Shown here: piece by piece, positions 31,550-39,514 of the stretch
Position numbering within the stretch: position 1 is the first letter of the stretch
Layout of the letters: every line of letters begins with the position of its first letter
NCBI GenBank assembly: GCA_017473775.1
Contig: JAFUJH010000048.1
Span: 1-39,514 of the forward strand
DNA from: Ruminococcus sp.
Lineage (GTDB): Bacteria; Bacillota; Clostridia; Oscillospirales; Acutalibacteraceae
Direction of reading: 5' to 3'
DNA length: 39,514 bases
Program-made: the position numbers and the translations under genes
The notes under the pieces: generated by a model
What the model saw: only the letters and a program-made list of their open reading frames with translations
Databases searched by the model: none
Told to the model about the DNA's origin: nothing

Positions 31550-32776
31550 ATGGCAGGAATGTTCCCGACAAACAAAGAAATCAGTGTTTTCGGCAAGAAA
31601 ATAAAATTTCCCGGAGTGACGGACAAGGGAGAATATACCAACGGCAATTTTGAGAACCCAGACGAGCCGCCGAGTTACATTGATGCGGACACGCAGAACC
31701 TTATCCTTCATAACCTCAACAATCTGATTGCTCAGCTCAGCGGAAAGGAAGCAAACAACACCGACAGAAATCAGCTGGCAGCATTGTTCACGGTGGAGGC
31801 GACGGCCTTGCGTGGCGTTCAGCGTGATGCCGGTGGCAGGGCAAAGGTCGCTTCCCCTGTAGAAGACGATGACATCGCCCGGAAAAAAGAAGTCGATGAT
31901 GTCGGTTATGAGCTTGGGCTTCACATTGCTGACACTTCCAATCCCCACGAGGTGACGAAAGCACAGGTCGGTCTCGGCAATGTCGACAACACGGCGGACA
32001 AAGACAAGGCGGTAAAATCGGCGGGCACATGCACGGGCAACGCGGAAACGGCAAGCAAATGGCAGACAGCTCGTAAGCTGAATGGCCTTTTCATACAGGG
32101 AGACTCAGACAGGACGAATTATGCGGTTTGCCCTACAGCCGCAGGAACTCAGGCAAAGACTTGTGATTGTGCAGGTTTTGCCCTGGTAACGGGAGCAGAA
32201 ATCACAGTCAAATTCTCCACGACAAACACACAGAATGCTCCAACGCTTAATGTGAACGGCACCGGGGCAAAAGCAATTTATTACCGTGGAGCCGCGATTC
32301 CCGCCGCTTATCTTGCCGCCAACAGAACCTACACATTCCGATACAATGGTTCGCAGTACGAGCTTGTCGGTGATATTGATACAAGCACGACATATTCTGT
32401 AGCAACAAGCTCCGCAGCCGGACTGATGAGTGCAACGGACAAAAAACGGCTTGATGGAAATTATGTGACCGCGTCAAATTTTGGAAGCTCGTCTGGTTAT
32501 ATAAAATATTCGAACGGCTTGGTTATACAGTGGATTAGAGTTAAAGCGACATCTGGAAACTTTAATATTCCACTTGTATTTCCTACCCCTTATACATCTC
32601 GAACATCTTATGTTGTCGTTACAGCAGAAGGTATTCAAGATTGTGAAACGAGAACTACTGCAGATGATGCCAGTGGCTATGACTATAGCGTTGCTATAGA
32701 CCAAAAATATGCAGACAGAATAGTTGTCTCAGTCGAACGTGATCGTATGGTTTTTATCGTTACTATGGGATATTAG
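31550..32776 (+). CDS. S: Tail fibre protein, Mu S-like
   Basis: A 408-residue fibre protein expected to bind the host receptor. The N-terminal 110 residues attach to the baseplate; HEVTKAQVGLGNVDNTADKDK (about 132-152, in part) is a phage fibre repeat; a beta-rich shaft follows; SAAGLMSATDKKRLDG (about 287-302) is a common hinge; and the last ~90 residues (from NGLVIQWIRV) are the receptor-binding tip. An alternative tip lies tail-to-tail on the other strand, overlapping by 4 bp. Base use in the last 300 bp is more AT-rich than the shaft, fitting an exchangeable tip. Confidence 0.85.
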   Translation: MAGMFPTNKEISVFGKKIKFPGVTDKGEYTNGNFENPDEPPSYIDADTQNLILHNLNNLIAQLSGKEANNTDRNQLAALFTVEATALRGVQRDAGGRAKVASPVEDDDIARKKEVDDVGYELGLHIADTSNPHEVTKAQVGLGNVDNTADKDKAVKSAGTCTGNAETASKWQTARKLNGLFIQGDSDRTNYAVCPTAAGTQAKTCDCAGFALVTGAEITVKFSTTNTQNAPTLNVNGTGAKAIYYRGAAIPAAYLAANRTYTFRYNGSQYELVGDIDTSTTYSVATSSAAGLMSATDKKRLDGNYVTASNFGSSSGYIKYSNGLVIQWIRVKATSGNFNIPLVFPTPYTSRTSYVVVTAEGIQDCETRTTADDASGYDYSVAIDQKYADRIVVSVERDRMVFIVTMGY

Positions 32777-33021
32777 TAACCTATAGCTATCCACCTAGCA
32801 TATAGGTCACCTTCGCCGTTTCTTCTTGTGTTGATTGTAAAAGAAGTTGCAGAAATCTCCGTAATATTTGGGTACCAATCATCACTATCCCTTGCTGAGA
32901 AATACGGAGAAAATACAACCGTAGGTGGCTTAGTAAACAGTAGTCCTGTAACTTTAATTACTCTGTCGTTACCAGAACTTTCTGTATCTTTACCAACTCC
33001 CCACTGTATTAATAATCCGTT
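32513..33021. repeat. Imperfect inverted match bounding the fibre tip cassettes
   Basis: The 21-bp stretch at 32513-32533 (encoding NGLVIQW) matches the reverse complement of 33001-33021 (encoding NGLLIQW) at 17 positions. It marks the boundary where the two tip sequences begin. It may be a crossover site, or simply conserved coding sequence; it is not the long perfect repeat expected for a freshly used invertible segment. Confidence 0.35.
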
Positions 33022-33072
33022 CACCCAAAAAAAACATATTTCTGCAAAAATGATTGCGGAGGTAATACACAT
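32773..33072 (-). CDS. Silent alternative tail-fibre tip cassette
   Basis: Read on the minus strand, about 83 residues from NGLLIQWGVGKD to RWIAIGY form a fibre receptor-binding tip of the same type and size as the end of the S protein (NGLVIQWIRV ... IVTMGY). There is no ribosome site before the ATG at 33072 and a stop lies just upstream, so it is not a free-standing gene but a spare 3' end. It converges on S with overlapping stop codons. Residues encoded before NGLLIQW overlap the invertase leader and are probably not functional protein. Confidence 0.75.
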   Translation of the reverse strand: MCITSAIIFAEICFFWVNGLLIQWGVGKDTESSGNDRVIKVTGLLFTKPPTVVFSPYFSARDSDDWYPNITEISATSFTINTRRNGEGDLYARWIAIGY

Positions 33073-33757
33073 GAACTACGGATATATTCGTGTCAGTACG
33101 GACGGACAGACAGTTGAGAATCAGAAACTAGCGATACGCAATTTTTGCCGATACAGGCGACTTCGACATGTGCAATGGGTAGCAGAAACAATTAGCGGTA
33201 CGAAAAAACCCGAAAAACGAAAACTTGGTTCTTTGCTCTCGACAGTACAAGAGGGAGACACAATCATTGTGACAGAGCTTTCCAGACTAGGACGCTCCCT
33301 GATGATGATTCTTGATGTTTTGCAGGAGCTGTTGGAGAAAAAAGTCAGCGTCATCGCAATCAAAGAGGGGTATGAGCTAGGCGACAACATTCAGAGTAAG
33401 GTTCTTGCCTTTGCTTTCGGACTGTCGGCAGAAATTGAGCGAACTTTGCTTTCAGAACGGACAAAGCAGGGCTTGGAACGCGCAAGAAAAGCAGGAAAGC
33501 AAATCGGCAGACTTCCCGGCCAAAAACCGCTGCATTATAAGCTCACCCCTCACCGTTACAAAATCCGACACTGGCTAAAGGAAGGCCGGAGCAAACTCTC
33601 AATCGCCCGCGAGCTTGGTGTAACTTGGTGCACACTCGACCGCTTCATCAAACAGCATCTTTATGACAAGCCGCCACAGCCACTTTCAGAGAAACCGAAA
33701 AAGCATGGTCATCCAACAATCTTAGAAAAGAAGTATTTTGAGAAAAATAAGGGCTAA
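33071..33757 (+). CDS. Serine-recombinase DNA invertase (Gin/Mpi-like)
   Basis: A 228-residue small serine recombinase. Catalytic Ser9 lies in YGYIRVSTD; Arg72 and Arg75 in ELSRLGRS; the E-helix region is SKVLAFAFGLSAEIERTLLSERTKQGL (about 127-153, in part); a C-terminal helix-turn-helix is at about 185-205 (SKLSIARELGVTWCTLDRF). The sequence resembles Bacteroides Mpi-type and phage Gin invertases. GGAGG at 33058-33062 fixes the start at 33071. It sits next to the inverted fibre tip, where gin sits in Mu, so the likely job is switching host range. Confidence 0.88.
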   Translation: MNYGYIRVSTDGQTVENQKLAIRNFCRYRRLRHVQWVAETISGTKKPEKRKLGSLLSTVQEGDTIIVTELSRLGRSLMMILDVLQELLEKKVSVIAIKEGYELGDNIQSKVLAFAFGLSAEIERTLLSERTKQGLERARKAGKQIGRLPGQKPLHYKLTPHRYKIRHWLKEGRSKLSIARELGVTWCTLDRFIKQHLYDKPPQPLSEKPKKHGHPTILEKKYFEKNKG

Positions 33758-33876
33758 TGCGTGTAAAAGTTGTTTTAACGACAGTTAATGCAGAAAAAAT
33801 AGTGAATACTGATATTGTTGTTCAAAACAAAGAAAGGGCAGAAACCCGCGAGCTGCAACTCACGGACAAGTGCTGA
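33757..33876 (+). CDS. Small protein of 39 residues after the invertase
   Basis: The ATG overlaps the invertase stop (TAATG). The product, MRVKVVLTTVNAEKIVNTDI followed by a charged tail ending TDKC, occupies the place of com in Mu but lacks the CxxC zinc motifs of Com. Coupling is the only support; function unknown. Confidence 0.35.
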   Translation: MRVKVVLTTVNAEKIVNTDIVVQNKERAETRELQLTDKC

Positions 33877-33991
33877 CACACTTATTGGATAACCAACTTC
33901 CACCCGATACATATAAGGATTATCGGTTGTTTTCGTCTTTAGGTTTACCCCTGATTGATAAGTTAATTTTATCACTCTGGGAGGTAATTGG
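33877..33991 (+). promoter_or_regulatory. Leader of the right-end operon with two small hairpins
   Basis: CCGATA (33904-33909) / TATCGG (33921-33926) followed by TTGTTTT could be a weak terminator or attenuator; TATAAG within its loop could serve as a -10. TGATAA (33956-33961) / TTATCA (33969-33974) lies a few bases before the GGGAGGT ribosome site of the 41-residue gene. In Mu, mom expression is controlled at both transcription and translation, so regulation here is plausible but not shown. Confidence 0.35.
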
Positions 33992-34117
33992 ATGAGTGAA
34001 TTTGAATACAAGCCGAAGTATGCGGTTATTGTAATGTGCAAGGATGAGGATGAGCAGAAAGCCATCTTCGAGAAGCTGAAGGCGATGGGGCTTACCATCA
34101 AGGTGGTGAGCGTATGA
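33992..34117 (+). CDS. Small 41-residue protein of the right-end operon
   Basis: The product runs MSEFEYKPKYAVIVMCKDED then EQKAIFEKLKAMGLTIKVVSV. It is a beta-alpha-beta mini-domain: a hydrophobic strand, an acidic turn with CKDEDEQ, an amphipathic helix with FEKLKAMG, and a last strand. I recall similar units beside or fused to phage DNA-processing proteins, but cannot confirm that here. GGGAGGT precedes the ATG, and the stop overlaps the ABC-GNAT start (ATGA), so the two are coupled. Confidence 0.65.
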   Translation: MSEFEYKPKYAVIVMCKDEDEQKAIFEKLKAMGLTIKVVSV

Positions 34118-35232
34118 AAACAATCAGCGTGGAAAAAGAATGCACGAATTATGAGACTTACAGAGCGCAGAGGGTGAAAAGCCTTTTCAACGCTGAATAC
34201 GGTCACAAATTCAGCATAAGCGTAGACACGGACATTGACGAGTTTGACTGGAAAATCGGTGTTGTCGTTGGTGCTTCGGGAACAGGAAAAACATCAATCG
34301 GAAAGACATTTTTTGACGGTCAGATTTATGACTTGAAAAACGGCTGGGCTGACGATTTGCCGATTATAGACGCAATCGCTCCCGATGGCGATTTCAATTC
34401 TGTTACTTCCGCATTGTCGGCGGTTGGTCTTGGAAGCGTTCCATCCTGGCTTCGTCCGTTTTCTGTTTTGTCGAACGGCGAGCAGTTCCGGGCAGGTCTT
34501 GCACGGCTCTTGCTTTCCGACGAAAAAGCCGTTGTTTTGGATGAGTTTACATCCGTTATTGACAGACAAGTCGCCCGGATTGCTTCAGGTGCATTTCAAA
34601 AGGCATGGAGAAGAAAGGAAGGCAGACAGGTGGTTATCTTAACGCCGCATTATGACATTCTGCCTTGGCTTGAACCTGACTGGATTATAGACACCAATGC
34701 AAAGAACTATAAAAGGGGGTGTCTTCAACGCCCTAAGTTCGAACTTGAGATTAGGCAGACCAATGGAAGTTACTGGAAATACTTTAAGTCGCATTACTAT
34801 TTAGACTTGCCGATGCCGATTGCAGCTCAGTATTTTGTGGGTCTGGTTGACGGTGAGCCGGTGGCTCATGTCGCTGTTTGTCCGTTCTTCCAAAGTGGTT
34901 ATTACAGGGCGACACGCCTTGTTGTAATGCCCGAATGGCAAGGAGCAGGAATCGGAACTAGATTCCTGAATGCGGTTTGTCAGTGGCATTTGGACGGAAA
35001 CGGACGATGTGGAAGAAAACTTCCTGTGATTTTCCACACATCTCATCCCCAGCTTGCGGCGGCTCTTCGTCGCTCTCCGCTTTGGGTTCAGAAAAGTGCA
35101 GTTCTTTATCAGAAATCCGGAACGAAATTCAGTCTTGCTCATAAGGACGGAACGAGTGGCGGACACAGCTGGTACGGCGGACATTTCAGAGCCGTGCAGG
35201 GCTTCGCCTATCTGGGGGTGCGTAATGCTTAA
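34114..35232 (+). CDS. ABC-ATPase fused to GNAT acyltransferase (COG2401-like), at the mom position
   Basis: A 372-residue fusion. The ABC ATPase half has Walker A GASGTGKT (53-60), signature LSNGE (119-123), Walker B VVLDEF (Asp143, Glu144) and an H-loop TPHYD (His179), so it looks active but has no membrane part. The GNAT half (about 210-340) has the acyl-CoA loop RLVVMPEWQGAGIGTRFL. Such fusions are known as COG2401 with unclear function. Mu Mom, encoded at this genome position, is itself a GNAT-fold enzyme that modifies adenine in DNA. A DNA-modifying role for this fusion is inference from fold and place. It overlaps both neighbours. Confidence 0.8.
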   Translation: MKTISVEKECTNYETYRAQRVKSLFNAEYGHKFSISVDTDIDEFDWKIGVVVGASGTGKTSIGKTFFDGQIYDLKNGWADDLPIIDAIAPDGDFNSVTSALSAVGLGSVPSWLRPFSVLSNGEQFRAGLARLLLSDEKAVVLDEFTSVIDRQVARIASGAFQKAWRRKEGRQVVILTPHYDILPWLEPDWIIDTNAKNYKRGCLQRPKFELEIRQTNGSYWKYFKSHYYLDLPMPIAAQYFVGLVDGEPVAHVAVCPFFQSGYYRATRLVVMPEWQGAGIGTRFLNAVCQWHLDGNGRCGRKLPVIFHTSHPQLAAALRRSPLWVQKSAVLYQKSGTKFSLAHKDGTSGGHSWYGGHFRAVQGFAYLGVRNA

Positions 35233-35857
35233 AGTGTTCATTGCAGGTCAGAAGTCTTTCGGTGCGGCAGTCTATAAGGCTGTTAAAGATGCAGGCTATA
35301 CGATAACTGGTGTTGCATGTCCTGCAGACGGCCAGTATTACGACAGACTCAAAAAAGCCGCATTTTGCGACAAGGCAAAGCCTGTCATTATCGATTCTGA
35401 CAAGTTGCGTTCATCTGATATTCCTGATGGAACGGATGTTATAATTGCGGCTCACAGTCACCATTTTATAAGCACGAAAGCCCGTGAGAAAGTGAGGTAT
35501 GCGGTCGGCTATCATCCGTCGCTTCTTCCCCGACACCGTGGGCGTGATGCAGTTAAATGGACTGTCCGATTCGGTGATACTGTAGCAGGTGGCTCAATCT
35601 ATGAGCTTGGTGAAAAGGTAGACGGTGGAGCGATTGTGCTTCAACGCTCGGTGCTTGTGAAGAAAGAATGGACTTACAAGGACTTGTGGCGTGAGGCTCT
35701 GTTTCCTCTTGGTGTGCAACTGATACTTGAAACCTTGAAAATGATAGAGGACGGTAAATATTCGGCAACGCCACAGAACGAGAGCCTTGCCACATGGGAG
35801 CCTCCCGTTGACCAAAATACAAGATTGTTTAGACCTGAATTGATGATGCTGCCATAA
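35225..35857 (+). CDS. Formyltransferase-fold protein of the right-end operon
   Basis: A 210-residue protein of the formyltransferase N-terminal fold (as in Fmt, PurN, ArnA). It has an N-terminal Rossmann strand VFIAGQKSFG, the hallmark YHPSLLPRHRG (96-106, His97), GGSIYEL and VDGGAIVLQ (Asp133). The catalytic Asn two residues before the His is Gly95 here, so chemistry may differ or formyl-folate may not be the donor. It starts inside the end of the ABC-GNAT gene (8-bp overlap), implying one pathway. No tRNA-binding C-terminal domain is present, so it is not a true Met-tRNA formyltransferase. Confidence 0.8.
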   Translation: MLKVFIAGQKSFGAAVYKAVKDAGYTITGVACPADGQYYDRLKKAAFCDKAKPVIIDSDKLRSSDIPDGTDVIIAAHSHHFISTKAREKVRYAVGYHPSLLPRHRGRDAVKWTVRFGDTVAGGSIYELGEKVDGGAIVLQRSVLVKKEWTYKDLWREALFPLGVQLILETLKMIEDGKYSATPQNESLATWEPPVDQNTRLFRPELMMLP

Positions 35858-35866
35858 AAAAAGAAA

Positions 35867-35904
35867 ACGCTATGTGCAAATGACTTACACATAGCGTGAT
35901 TTTT
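35867..35904 (+). terminator. Terminator of the right-end operon
   Basis: A perfect 10-bp stem ACGCTATGTG (35867-35876) / CACATAGCGT (35888-35897) is followed by GATTTTT. It lies 10 nt after the last phage gene. Confidence 0.85.
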
Positions 35905-35919
35905 GACTGAGTGAGTTAT

Positions 35920-35941
35920 CGCTTCAAAAAAGCGTTTTTTT
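35920..35941 (+). terminator. Second terminator-like hairpin at the phage right end
   Basis: CGCTT (35920-35924), loop CAAAA, AAGCG (35930-35934) and seven T. It ends 14 bp before the phage terminus and would insulate the host gene fragment. It overlaps an AAGCGATAA copy on the minus strand (35916-35924), a possible transposase site. Confidence 0.6.
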
Positions 35942-35955
35942 CGTTGCGTGTTACA

Positions 35956-35961
35956 GTATAG
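35956..35961. repeat. Target-site duplication, right copy (GTATAG)
   Basis: Identical to 382-387 and immediately after the terminal CA of the prophage. Joining 2-387 to 35962 onward keeps the flavodoxin frame open. Confidence 0.85.
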
Positions 35962-36109
35962 ATTGATGATGAAAATGTTTGTAAAAATGCTTTCTAACAA
36001 AAAAGATATGCGAGAAATTGACAAAGAAGCTGTAAAAATGATGAGTCATTCTTATGACATTGCCGACCAAAAGTATCTTGATCCGATTGTAGAATATTTG
36101 AAAGGGTAA
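35962..36109 (+). pseudogene. Flavodoxin-domain protein, 3' fragment
   Basis: About 48 residues in the frame continuing from 387: LMMKMFVKMLSNKKDMREID onward, ending DPIVEYLKG before TAA at 36107-36109. The helical, lysine-rich end with SYDIADQKYLDPIVEYL is the sort of C-terminus expected of this flavodoxin-like family. An ATG occurs at the start of the fragment but no good ribosome site, so it is probably not expressed on its own. Confidence 0.85.
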
Positions 36110-36260
36110 ATTGCGTTAGGCAATGGAGCGGTGCCGAAGGCAGCCACCCTGTAAAGTTTGCGACCAACGGGAGCAAATCTTTAGCAACCGTTCAGGTTGC
36201 GACAGGGGGCCGAGGGTACCGAGCCGCGGAACTGCCGACCTTGAGCGACTAACAGGAGCG
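36110..36260. other. GC-rich structured intergenic element
   Basis: About 150 bp much richer in G+C than the genes on both sides and rich in short inverted repeats, for example GCAACC (36184-36189) / GGTTGC (36195-36200) and TGCC-GAA-GGCA near 36132-36142, with GCGTT at one edge and AACGC at the other. It encodes no convincing protein, except that the last codons and stop of sfsA run into it. It looks like a dispersed genomic repeat or a structured RNA; neither can be proven from one copy. Confidence 0.5.
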
Positions 36261-37007
36261 AGAGGGAACGCCAATATAAAGATTATCTGGCTGGACTTTG
36301 CAAGGCAAAAACCACACTTCAACACCAGCTTTTTGTGCATTTTCCAAAGCGGTAGCGAATTCTGGGTGAGTTTTTGTGTTGGGCAAAACTTTTTCCACTC
36401 CTTCCATTTGAATTACAAAAGCCAAAATTGATTTGTAGCCTTTAGAAACTGCGGCGGCAAGTTCATTAAGATGTTTTACGCCACGTTCCGTTGGAGCGTC
36501 TGGGAAATATCCCACGCCCCCAACTTCCAAAGTGCAGCCCTTCACTTCCATAAGGATTTTTTCGGTTTTTCCTGTGACTTCATTAGTTTTTTCCATGTAG
36601 AAGTCGAATCTTGATTTTCCAAAAGTGTACTCTGGCTTGATTTTGTTGTAGCTCTGAGTTTGAAGCCACTCTAGCACGACCTTGTTTGGCGCTTGACTGT
36701 CGATATTAAACAAAAGAGATTTTTCCTCACCGTTTTTCATCCGCTTTCGAAAAGCCGAAGGATAATTTTCCCAGTTAGAAACTTGGTCGTAGCGTTTTTC
36801 CACAGCCACCAAATCGTACAAAGTTTTTCGATTGGGATTTTCAGATTTTTCAAGATAAACAGTGCACCCCGGAATAAGAAGTTCTCTGCATCGCCCAGTA
36901 TTTTTTACGTGAACAGTTTCCTCCGTGCCGTCAAAAAAACGAACCTGGGCAATAAAGCGATTTGGCCGAGAAAGAAAGGTTGCGGTGGTGATGTGGTGGT
37001 AGTGCAT
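36249..37007 (-). CDS. sfsA: SfsA family DNA/RNA nuclease-like protein
   Basis: A 252-residue SfsA protein, first known as sugar fermentation stimulation protein and now linked to a PD-(D/E)XK nuclease-like fold. Signatures are NTGRCRELLIPG, LLFNIDSQAPNKVVLEWL, GKSRFDFYM, ILMEVKGCTL and FPDAPTERGVKHL; Asp and Glu-x-Lys in the last blocks would form the active site. I use the ATG at 37007, 4 nt after the hsdR stop; an upstream TTG at 37043 overlaps hsdR. The C-terminal few residues (VPSRSC) are encoded by the GC-rich element, so the natural end may have been altered. Confidence 0.9.
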   Translation of the reverse strand: MHYHHITTATFLSRPNRFIAQVRFFDGTEETVHVKNTGRCRELLIPGCTVYLEKSENPNRKTLYDLVAVEKRYDQVSNWENYPSAFRKRMKNGEEKSLLFNIDSQAPNKVVLEWLQTQSYNKIKPEYTFGKSRFDFYMEKTNEVTGKTEKILMEVKGCTLEVGGVGYFPDAPTERGVKHLNELAAAVSKGYKSILAFVIQMEGVEKVLPNTKTHPEFATALENAQKAGVEVWFLPCKVQPDNLYIGVPSRSC

Positions 37008-37011
37008 GGTG

Positions 37012-39514
37012 TTATTTTCCGTAGTTTGGAGTTTCTTCTGCAACCATTAAGTTTTGGGAAGGATGATTTGCAAAGTCATAAGTTGGTTTGTTTGCTTTTT
37101 CGTTTTGAGTAGTTTCTGAGTGTTCAAAGTTTTCTTGATTGTCTGTCCACATTTCGCATTGGCTGATTACGGTTTTTAGTGCGTCTTCTTGTCCTTCTGG
37201 TGGATATTTGTATTTTTTTAGAAGGCGTTTTACTAGCATTCGCATTTTTGCACGAGCACTTTCCTTTTTTTGCCAATCGATTGTTTTGTTTTTACGTAAT
37301 TCTTCTGTAAGTTCTTTTGTGAGGGCAACAAGTTCTTCATTTGAATAAAAGTCTTTTACTGCCGCAGGTTTTGTAAGAGCATCATAAAATGCTAATTCTT
37401 CGTCTGTAAGTCCAAGTTTGTTGCCTTCTTCATTTGCATGGAGCATTTCTTTTGCAAGTTTTAGCAATTCTTGAATTACTTCTTCATTTGTAAGCATTCC
37501 ATTCAAATAACGATTTAAAGTTTGCTGAATTAATTCGCTAAATTTTTCTGATTTTACAAGATTTGTTCGTTTATAAACTTTTACTTGTTCTGCAATCAAC
37601 TTTTTGAGCATTTCTACAGCAAGATTTTTTTCTTTCATTTTTGAAATATTTTCTAAAAAGGCTGCATCAAAAAGATTGATTTGTTCCCCAATATCAGAAA
37701 AAAGATTCAAAACTCCATCTGATTTTACAGATTGTTTTAAAAGTTCATTGATTCTGTCGTTGATTTCTTTAAGAGAAAACTTTTTCCCTGTTGGACTAAA
37801 AAGAAGTCGCATTACTAAAACACGAACAGCTTCAAAAAAGGCCGCTTCCATTCGCATTTTTTCTTTTACCATTGAAGAACAAAGGGAAAGAGATTGTTTT
37901 AACATTAATGCTTCTTTTATAAAACATTGCTTTTCTTCTTCTTTTTCCACAGACATAATAAAGTTTACAGCCCCTGTTATTGTTTTTCCTCGCTGTAAAT
38001 CTGAGCCATCATAAAAATCAGAATAATCGTATCCGTAAAAAAGATTTTGACATATTTCTAATTTTTCTTGGAATTTTGGATATGCTTTTTTGGCAACATC
38101 CATTTCGCCATAATTATTTTTGTCACGAACTGTGTAATCGTTCATGGCTTGTTTTAATGCGTTTGCAATGCCAATATAATCTACTACAAGCCCACCTTCT
38201 TTGTCTTTAAAAACACGATTTACTCTGGCAATTGCTTGCATAAGATTGTAACTTTCCATTGGTTTGTAAACATACATTGTTGCAAGTGACGGAACATCAA
38301 AGCCTGTAAGCCACATATCAACAACAATGGCGATTTTTAATGGACTTGAATTGTCTTTAAATCGAATTGCAAGTTCTTGTTTATATTTTTTGTTACCAAT
38401 AAAAGCTCGCCATTCTTCTGGATCTTTATTACTTTCTGTTATTACAAGAGCAATTTTTGCATCATCACCGGGAACTGTAATTTGATTAGAACCGATTGTA
38501 ACTTGCGATGTTGTTCCTGCCCAAGAAGGACGCAATTCCAAAATTCTTTTAAAAATCTTCATTGCAATTGAACGATTGTAAGCAACTATCATTGCTTTTC
38601 CTGTGTACAAATATTGGCGTTCATTTTCGTAATGTTCCAAAATATCATCAACAAGAGAATTAATAGTTTTTTCATGGCCCAGAATTTCTTCCATTTTTCC
38701 AAGTTCATGTTTGCTTTTTTCTATTACTTCTTCATCTGCATTTTGAGCAAGGTAATCATATTCTGCGTCAATTTGAGAAAGAACTTTATCATCAAGTTTT
38801 AATTTGATAACACGACTTTCGTAATAAACAGGCCGAGTTGCTCCGTCTAAAACTGCCTGTGTCATATCATAAATGTCGATGTAATCACCAAAAACTTCGA
38901 TTGTACTTTTGTCTTGGCGAGAAATTGGAGTTCCTGTAAAACCGATGTAACTTGCCTTTGGCAAAGAATCACGAATAATTCTTGCAGTTCCAATTGTTCG
39001 GTGGGCAATTAGATTATCATTTTCGTCTTTAAAAGTTTTGATTTTTTCTGTTAATCCATATTGTCCACGATGAGCTTCGTCTGCCATTACAATAATATTT
39101 TTGCGTTCAGAAAGAGGTTCATTTGATTCTTCAAACTTTTGCATTGTTGTAAAAATAATTCCGTTTGCCTTGCGACCATCAAGTAATTTTTTAAGATGTT
39201 CTCGACTTTCGGCTTGAATTGGTTCTTGTCGCAAAAAATCCTTGCAATTATTGAATTGAGTAAAAAGTTGACTATCTAAATCATTACGGTCGGTAATAAC
39301 AACGATTGTCGGCGAATCAATTGCCTGCTGCAAAAGATGTGCATAAAAAACCATAGAAAGAGATTTTCCAGAACCTTGGGTATGCCAAAAAACACCGATT
39401 TTTCCATCACCCAAAACCGCTTGTTTTGTTCGTTCTACAGCTTTTCTAACTGCAAAATATTGATGATATCCAGCTAAAATCTTAAAAGAATTGATTCCTT
39501 CGTTATTAAAACAA
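37012..39514 (-). CDS. hsdR: Type I restriction enzyme R subunit (HsdR), 5' end outside window
   Basis: The frame stays open to the window edge, so this is the C-terminal 830 residues or so of HsdR. Helicase motifs: HTQGSGKS (Walker A), [12 protein letters not shown] (DEAH box), [10 protein letters not shown] (motif III), [14 protein letters not shown] (motif V) and [10 protein letters not shown] (motif VI). HsdR translocates DNA and cuts it when unmodified at the type I site; the nuclease domain would be further upstream. No hsdM or hsdS is visible. It is AT-rich like the flavodoxin gene, so it is native host DNA. sfsA follows 4 nt after its stop. Confidence 0.93.

Follow-up and report, generated by a model that had tools for sequence, protein, structure and literature searches.

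The window, the whole 39,514-nucleotide stretch of DNA that was analysed, carries a Mu-like element, recognised by a MuA-type transposase (phrog_310), a transposition protein of phrog_296 (MuB), and the Mu portal, Mu F and Mu gp27 proteins. The gene order at the right end of phage Mu is gin, com, mom, end, and it is paralleled in the window by an invertase, a tiny protein, an ABC-GNAT fusion, a formyltransferase-like protein and the right end. The features of this region are as follows.

32512-33022, no strand: invertible tail-fibre segment; inverted repeats of 22 nt at 32512-32533 and at 33001-33022
33071-33757, plus strand: serine DNA invertase, Mpi-like, in the place of Mu gin (NF009949, E 1.9e-75; PF00239)
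33757-33876, plus strand: 39-aa ORF, probably not a gene
33832-33991, plus strand: conserved non-coding leader, mean column identity 89% (window, L005, L008)
33992-34117, plus strand: 41-aa protein, C-terminal tail of a ParB-like protein of other phages (phrog_28816)
34114-35232, plus strand: ABC-GNAT fusion, ABC ATPase at about residues 44-195 and GNAT at about 222-372, from Pfam, PHROGs and motifs, domain limits estimated
35225-35857, plus strand: formyltransferase-fold protein of the FDH-hydrolase type; H97, S99 and D133 kept, Gly95 at the place of the Asn of amine formyltransferases
35867-35897, direction uncertain (one listing puts it on the minus strand): terminator-like hairpin after the operon, z -5.1
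35942-35955, plus strand: right terminus of the Mu-like element, ending ...CGTGTTACA

The three overlapping genes described in the first-pass annotation were confirmed at these coordinates, and their placement in the com-mom position, between the invertase and the right end, was borne out by the end at 35955 together with the Mu order. Four relative contigs all lose homology at exactly 35955, and the flanks beyond it, inspected by eye, were of three different kinds (the window, L005/L006 from one MAG, and L008). The left end of the element was looked for as the right end in inverted orientation, without success. The invertase scored 253 bits against NF009949, under the model's cut-off of 272, and a reversed alternative fibre end lies at 32773-33072 on the minus strand.

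The further tiny ORF noted after the invertase stop did not hold up as a gene. The 39-aa product has no Pfam or PHROGs family, and its relatives resemble only about the last 15 residues, where the ORF overlaps the conserved leader. This leader is possibly a structured mRNA leader. Two-sided changes were seen in 2 of 44 predicted pairs, with a slightly unfavourable covariation term (+0.78), and the single-sequence fold gave a z of only -1.3 to -2.0; an Rfam search gave no match. The leader was present in 1 of 118 relatives, which was the window's own genome, and the exact 23-base core occurred in only one viral contig, that behind L009. Six promoter-like sites were predicted in 33600-36000, where shuffled sequence gave a mean of 3.3 (sd 2.1); of the six, a single one lies on the operon's strand.

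The ABC-GNAT fusion

The protein encoded at 34114 was matched by Pfam ABC_tran (E 2e-5) and Acetyltransf_1 (E 9.5e-8), and by phrog_11143 at E 1.1e-136 over residues 3-370, with the ABC and then the GNAT domain in one chain. Across 105 aligned rows the residues of the Walker A, signature, Walker B and H-loop motifs are invariant, as are Q276 and G277 of the GNAT acyl-CoA loop, while G279 and G281 are nearly so. The conserved ABC motifs and the acyl-CoA-binding GNAT loop support the first-pass reading. Three histidines, His252 (100%), His308 (99%) and His357 (100%), are peculiar to the clade linked to the formyltransferase-like gene; being confined to one clade, they may reflect simple ancestry. 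The weak matches of the ABC part include ABC-F models.

The arrangement resembles com-mom of phage Mu in its right-end place after an invertase and in having a small gene that overlaps the gene of a GNAT-fold enzyme, the GNAT fold of Mom being described in PMC7824862. It differs in that the window adds an ABC domain and a formyltransferase-like gene, and that the proteins show no sequence relation to Mom or Com. The ABC-GNAT protein gave no match to phrog_1384, the Mom family, up to E 1, with none elsewhere in its own genome, and hhalign gave a probability of 0.1 against five close Mom sequences. The small protein was considered as a Com homologue and rejected, its only good PHROGs match being phrog_28816, while Com matches phrog_13819 and phrog_6417.

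The fusion belongs to the same family as the ABC ATPase-GNAT proteins of Iyer and co-workers, which PMC7824862 already predicts to modify a DNA base with an acyl group. The family example QAX98348.1, gene ASfcp2_2 in L023, aligns with the window protein at 30% identity. The reading is not entirely new: a DNA role for ABC-GNAT is predicted in print, while no earlier account of the ParB tail, the donor slot or the formyl-thioester chemistry described below was found in literature searches. The text of PMC7824862 contains no occurrence of ParB or formyl, and a 2013 paper cited there may say more.

At E 1e-3 the phrog_11143 search was positive in 198/198 relatives and 14/14 controls, and was non-specific, apparently because common ABC ATPases match. 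Only strong matches were then counted, the own genome standing at 3e-137 and the next best at 1e-9; with a later limit of E 1e-50, 1 of 398 genomes in the phylum sample and 1 of 161 genus members were positive, in each case the window's own genome. Plasmid records gave 847 matches, yet only 3 cover at least 80% of the query.

The small protein and its ParB-like relatives

Sequence comparison identified the 41-aa protein as the C-terminal tail of a ParB-like protein encoded by other phages. The ParB part of that protein is common to phage DNA methyltransferases, and for the ParB-like partner the Type II methyltransferase model of PADLOC was matched in its N-terminal portion (14-143 of 436, E 1.5e-25). 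In L016 the gene annotated as a DNA modification methylase is the gene of about 200 aa that precedes ABC-GNAT. Because of this example annotation names were not trusted, and domains were tested in four fetched ParB relatives, hand-picked from a tblastn listing for their methyltransferase annotation: an N6_N4_Mtase domain was present in 4/4, and ParB_N was found by Pfam in 3/4, the fourth being supported by its tblastn match. The same ParB module is thus shared with the phage ParB-DNA methyltransferase fusions of PADLOC MTase_II, from which the present loci differ in that a separate ABC-GNAT gene replaces the methyltransferase domain. A ParB-family protein, DpdB, also serves a base-modification enzyme in Dpd 7-deazaguanine DNA modification, where the chemistry and enzymes differ and where it is described as possibly dispensable in some clusters (PMC12839542).

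Among 46 hand-picked records, MuA was found in 13/23 that carry the tail only and in 0/23 of those called ParB, one of which (L137) is unclassified, and missing MuA is weak evidence because many records are fragments. Three records of the ParB group (L140, L141, L194) gave no tail match under the rule used, and a separate listing gives each of them a tail-bearing ORF of ParB length. A tail-bearing ORF was absent within 80 bp in 9 of 65 representatives. No ParB gene was detected elsewhere in the window with five ParB fragments, the best match having E 0.39. The tail is fairly likely to be a docking adaptor.

The formyltransferase-like protein

The third gene was matched by Pfam Formyl_trans_N (E 8e-18) and phrog_9240. 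Amine formyltransferases such as FMT, PurN and ArnA carry a catalytic Asn-x-His; this Asn was found in 0 of 109 unique formyltransferase-like domains, while the host's own Fmt keeps it (I-N-L-H). With the Asn replaced, H97, S99 and D133 are kept in 67/67 rows, as in the FDH-hydrolase type. The best solved relatives were the hydrolase domains of 10-formyl-THF dehydrogenase (FDH), at E 2.5e-38 and 5e-48 in two structure-database searches, in which HypX was found at about 2e-11 and 1e-14. The His-Ser-Asp set is shared with the FDH (ALDH1L1) hydrolase domain, where the Asn place is Ile, compared with Gly, Ile or Val in the phage proteins. Unlike FDH and the HypX N-domain, the phage protein stands alone, without a carrier or dehydrogenase domain, and most of its rows contain an A-H-S-H motif (H77 in 62/67, H79 in 60/67). 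At the place of this motif other members contact the pterin ring, so the source of the formyl group may differ.

According to PMC6802093, a phosphopantetheine thiol receives the formyl group from FDH, and HypX is a proposed producer of formyl-CoA. The formyltransferase fold stands, but the protein does not resemble an ordinary amine formyltransferase, the nearest solved relatives acting on a thiol. The best NCBIfam match was methionyl-tRNA formyltransferase (E 1.2e-21), an identity that was rejected since the score of 77.2 bits is far below the cut-off of 201.5 and the protein has 210 aa against a model of 315 positions. The formyl-transfer part matches the protein to its end, leaving no room for a tRNA-binding C-terminal domain.

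Linkage of the genes in other phages

Among dereplicated loci from the best 80 viral hits of each protein (best 80 of 577 and best 80 of 226 confirmed matches), the formyltransferase-like gene lay downstream in 52/57 ABC-GNAT loci and ABC-GNAT lay upstream in 55/55 formyltransferase-like loci, both counts leaning to the window's relatives because only best matches were kept and the two sets share contigs. Left out of the counts were 12 of 69 ABC-GNAT representatives whose downstream sequence is shorter than 480 bp (the formyltransferase-like gene is nevertheless present in one of them) and 4 of 59 formyltransferase-like representatives whose upstream sequence is shorter than 600 bp (a partial ABC-GNAT is present in three). 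Of the 58 ABC-GNAT matches upstream, ten were partial or split (<400 bits). The start of the formyltransferase-like domain was measured in 58 cases and lies in a 4-bp overlap in 25 of them. The co-occurrence survey proposed at the outset thus found the set recurring, tightly linked, in unrelated phages, which indicates more than chance. Four of the five ABC-GNAT representatives that are missing the formyltransferase-like gene form a clade, and this clade still keeps His252 and His357.

In the sister clade the slot after ABC-GNAT is mostly empty, neither donor gene being present in 28 of 30 tree rows. ABC-GNAT was paired with a CoA-transferase-III-like gene in six contigs, five of which also have an aspartate decarboxylase; decarboxylase and CoA-transferase occurred together in only 2 of 80 loci of the scan. 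A single CoA-transferase-like protein was scanned, and it matched no more than positions 4-107 of the Pfam model, which has 366 positions. That the slot supplies an acyl donor is a reasonable conjecture, somewhat short of probable.

A possible route to DNA acylation

Judged from sequence, the module quite probably acts on DNA, and its description as a Mom-like DNA-modification module is plausible, if not yet probable. Most likely the set adds a small acyl group, perhaps formyl, to phage DNA. The ABC-GNAT protein would work on DNA and not in transport, its ATPase loading the protein on DNA or moving it along, and its docking partner would be the ParB-like protein or, in the case of Mu-like phages, just the tail of that protein. 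The GNAT domain would take the acyl group of acyl-CoA and attach it to a base amino group in the DNA, the formyltransferase-like protein having moved the formyl of 10-formyl-THF onto the CoA thiol to give formyl-CoA. The expected product would be an N-formyl base, protecting phage DNA from host nucleases; this pairing of formyl-CoA donor and N-formyl base is doubtful. The first-pass reading of an acylated or formylated base, with the ABC ATPase on DNA, is in part supported, by the com-mom place, the motifs, the linkage and the ParB partner whose ParB part it shares with DNA methyltransferases, and needs changing at the amine-formyltransferase step. A wider proposal is modular phage DNA acylation, in which an ABC-GNAT writer, directed by a ParB-like protein or just its tail, would be fed by swappable donor enzymes, formyl-CoA from the FDH-type formyltransferase in one clade, giving an N-formyl base, and beta-alanyl-CoA from aspartate decarboxylase and CoA-transferase in another. 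As a whole it is decidedly tentative and rather unlikely.

GNAT enzymes and Met-tRNA formyltransferases have protein or charged-tRNA substrates, and the module might, as a means of host takeover, be directed at such a host target instead of DNA. The NCBIfam match of the third gene, far below cut-off as it is, and the ABC-F models among the weak ABC matches agree with this, but the lack of room for a tRNA-binding domain, the methyltransferase-associated ParB partner and the mom position make it unlikely. It is improbable that ABC-GNAT modifies DNA with ordinary acetyl-CoA while the formyltransferase-like protein hydrolyses 10-formyl-THF or is a non-catalytic subunit. The mostly empty sister slot and the five representatives of 57 in the window's clade that are missing the formyltransferase-like gene would suit such a side role, and the FDH domain also acts as a hydrolase; the conservation of His97, Ser99 and Asp133 in every row speaks for a working enzyme, and the 55/55 linkage also counts against it. 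The addition by ABC-GNAT of an amine-bearing group, for example aminoacyl, that the third protein then N-formylates would fit the Formyl_trans_N fold, a gene order of writer and then possible tailoring enzyme, and an aspartate decarboxylase suited to amino-acid chemistry, but is improbable given the absence of the amine-formyltransferase Asn, nearest solved relatives that act on a thiol, and a CoA-transferase-like partner better suited to donor supply.

If DNA acylation by formyl-CoA is correct, a class of DNA modification that has been predicted but is still an orphan would gain a concrete chemistry, with calculated mass shifts of +28 Da here and +71 Da for the aspartate-decarboxylase variant. 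Formyl-CoA as a modifier of nucleic acid would, to our knowledge, be new. Isolated phages with annotated hosts, namely Gordonia phage BiggityBass, Pseudomonas phage Komp_PAO1_1 and phage Jace, are suited to nucleoside mass spectrometry.

Operon structure and location

The genes for the tail protein (33992–34117), the ABC-GNAT fusion (34114–35232) and the formyltransferase-like protein (35225–35857) all overlap. Pfam identified ABC_tran and Acetyltransf_1 domains in the fusion protein and Formyl_trans_N in the third gene, and a PHROGs family exists for each of the three proteins, two of these families being of unknown function. The element carrying the operon is Mu-like, and its right end was placed at 35955, where four relative contigs lose homology and the flanking DNA differs. 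The invertase and operon follow the gene order of gin, com and mom at the right end of Mu, so that coordinates, right end and gene order bear out the siting of the three genes at the place of Mu com-mom in the first-pass annotation. The GC content was 0.46–0.48 over the invertase and operon, like the 0.49 of the phage body (13479–31546) and unlike the 0.36 of neighbouring host genes, which argues that the operon moves with the phage. The closest genomic relatives of the window are Treponema MAGs. The serine invertase adjoins the following feature:

32512–33022 invertible tail-fibre tip with reversed alternative end

The leader at 33832–33991 gave a mean column identity of 89% among three relatives, compared to 77–81% over the whole aligned right-end stretches, and contains predicted hairpins, one directly before the ribosome-binding site. 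The leader may act in translation control. Right of the insertion (36249–39414) are SfsA and an ORF like a type I restriction R-subunit, whose match to the best model starts only at position 285.

Recurrence of the gene set

Relatives in phage records were identified using tblastn for the ABC-GNAT (66), the formyltransferase-like protein (33) and the tail (23), the last run to an E value of 10, which makes the weakest tail matches doubtful. Gordonia phages and Pseudomonas phage Komp_PAO1_1 carry the full set, as do Porphyromonas phages, in which the formyltransferase-like gene is shorter. Viral-contig matches were dereplicated and those with enough flank were inspected: the formyltransferase-like gene was downstream of ABC-GNAT in 52 of 57 representatives (best 80 of 577 matches), and an ABC-GNAT match above 60 bits, in some cases partial, was upstream of the formyltransferase-like gene in 55 of 55 (best 80 of 226). 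The gap between the two (n = 58) was a 4-bp overlap in 25 cases and at most 16 bp in 52, with two long gaps of 392 and 1002 bp. With a cut-off of E 1e-50, 398 genomes from the phylum and 161 from the genus yielded the ABC-GNAT protein in the window's own genome only. Four loci came from scanning genome contigs: three lie in Treponema MAGs, where homology extends along the window's element, and the fourth is L007, whose listed genes are those of viral contig L010. The module is a recurrent, genuine gene set.

In one clade (loci L045, L050, L051 and L056) ABC-GNAT and tail are kept and a 69–73-aa ORF of alike sequence replaces the formyltransferase-like gene. The conjugative IncP plasmid pKV29 of Delftia (L308:6001–7565) has an ABC-GNAT match to residues 55–369 with no annotated gene there, followed by a formyltransferase-family gene.

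Judged from sequence, the module is most likely a DNA-acylation system. Iyer and co-workers (PMC7824862) note an existing prediction that a GNAT coupled with an ABC ATPase acylates a DNA base in an uncharacterised manner, and sequence comparison places their example protein in the window's ABC-GNAT family. For ABC-GNAT together with formyltransferase or ParB, partial literature coverage gave no describing paper. The combination was absent from the available part of a BREX paper and from a phage-modification paper. The general role had been predicted; what appears new, and can be tested, is the ParB tail, the proposed donor slot directly after ABC-GNAT and the putative formyl-thioester chemistry.

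The tail protein and ParB

About 40 residues of the tail protein form the C-terminal end of a ~197–210-aa protein in L007, L010 and Gordonia phages. This protein bears a ParB_N-like part, slightly under the Pfam cut-off in L007 and in the sister-clade phage Jace; Pfam gave no match for the Gordonia protein (L003). Of 65 representatives with enough flank, 56 have a tail-bearing ORF ending beside ABC-GNAT, 26 of these ORFs being of 41–95 aa and 30 of 138–408 aa. Of 46 records selected for the comparison, 13 contained MuA, comprising 13 of 23 tail-only records and 0 of 23 others (Fisher p 2e-5, a guide only, given that many records are fragmentary and share ancestry). In a phylogeny of 105 ABC-GNAT proteins, with weak support for 36 of its 102 inner branches, the upstream state (ParB, tail only or none) switches at least 13 times. 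These changes are read as repeated ParB loss with the tail retained, the direction being the presumed one, and the tail is taken as a probable docking piece. In L007 the ParB region aligns with the N-terminal portion of a Type II methyltransferase model (E 1.5e-25), and all four ParB relatives fetched, hand-picked for methyltransferase annotation, contain an N6_N4_Mtase domain. The strongest indication that the writer would act on DNA comes from this sharing.

The formyltransferase-like protein

The predicted formyltransferase fold was confirmed by Formyl_trans_N, but amine formyl transfer was not supported, as the catalytic Asn occurs in none of 109 unique domains. The residue before the aromatic-His pair is Gly in 93, Ile in 13 and Val in 2, one domain being without the His. 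The Asn is present in the host's own Met-tRNA formyltransferase. H97, S99 and D133 are invariant in a 67-row alignment. The closest solved structures are hydrolase domains of 10-formyl-THF dehydrogenase (FDH), followed by tRNA formyltransferases, sugar formyltransferases such as ArnA, and HypX. The FDH domains have I-Y-H at the place of the catalytic Asn in the printed alignment, and FDH is not known to formylate amines. According to PMC6802093, FDH hands formyl to a phosphopantetheine thiol using His, Ser and Asp, and formyl-CoA is proposed for HypX, direct proof being absent. The same paper describes the triad as conserved in Met-tRNA formyltransferase and ArnA also, so the triad alone cannot separate thiol from amine use, and the weight of the probable case against amine-formyltransferase chemistry lies on the absent Asn.

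The proposed donor slot

The genes that follow ABC-GNAT in Jace encode an aspartate decarboxylase (E 2e-33) and, with a partial match at E 2e-8, a CoA-transferase-III-like protein. A separate scan with the second protein found six loci, among them a copy of the Jace genome and the contig of locus L227. One locus is cut at the contig end; the other five all have ABC-GNAT upstream, with the decarboxylase in between in four. Locus L210 is a further case. The three decarboxylase-like sequences inspected carry the G-S pair that serves pyruvoyl formation in PanD. Acyl-CoA is the natural donor of GNAT enzymes, and both slot types, formyltransferase-like or decarboxylase with CoA-transferase, can be read as putative makers of acyl-CoA. 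The second variant is rare (2 of 80 sister-clade loci scanned), and none of the 80 had a formyltransferase-like match. Two neighbours seen once each, a glycosyltransferase in L220 and an ASCH domain in L017, are neutral to the donor-slot reading. His252, His308 and His357 are present in the formyltransferase-linked ABC-GNAT clade and missing from the sister clade, and may reflect a changed pocket or simple ancestry. At L315:2365–3989 there are tandem ABC-GNAT matches, the first to the C-terminal (GNAT) half only, followed by a CoA-transferase-like gene.
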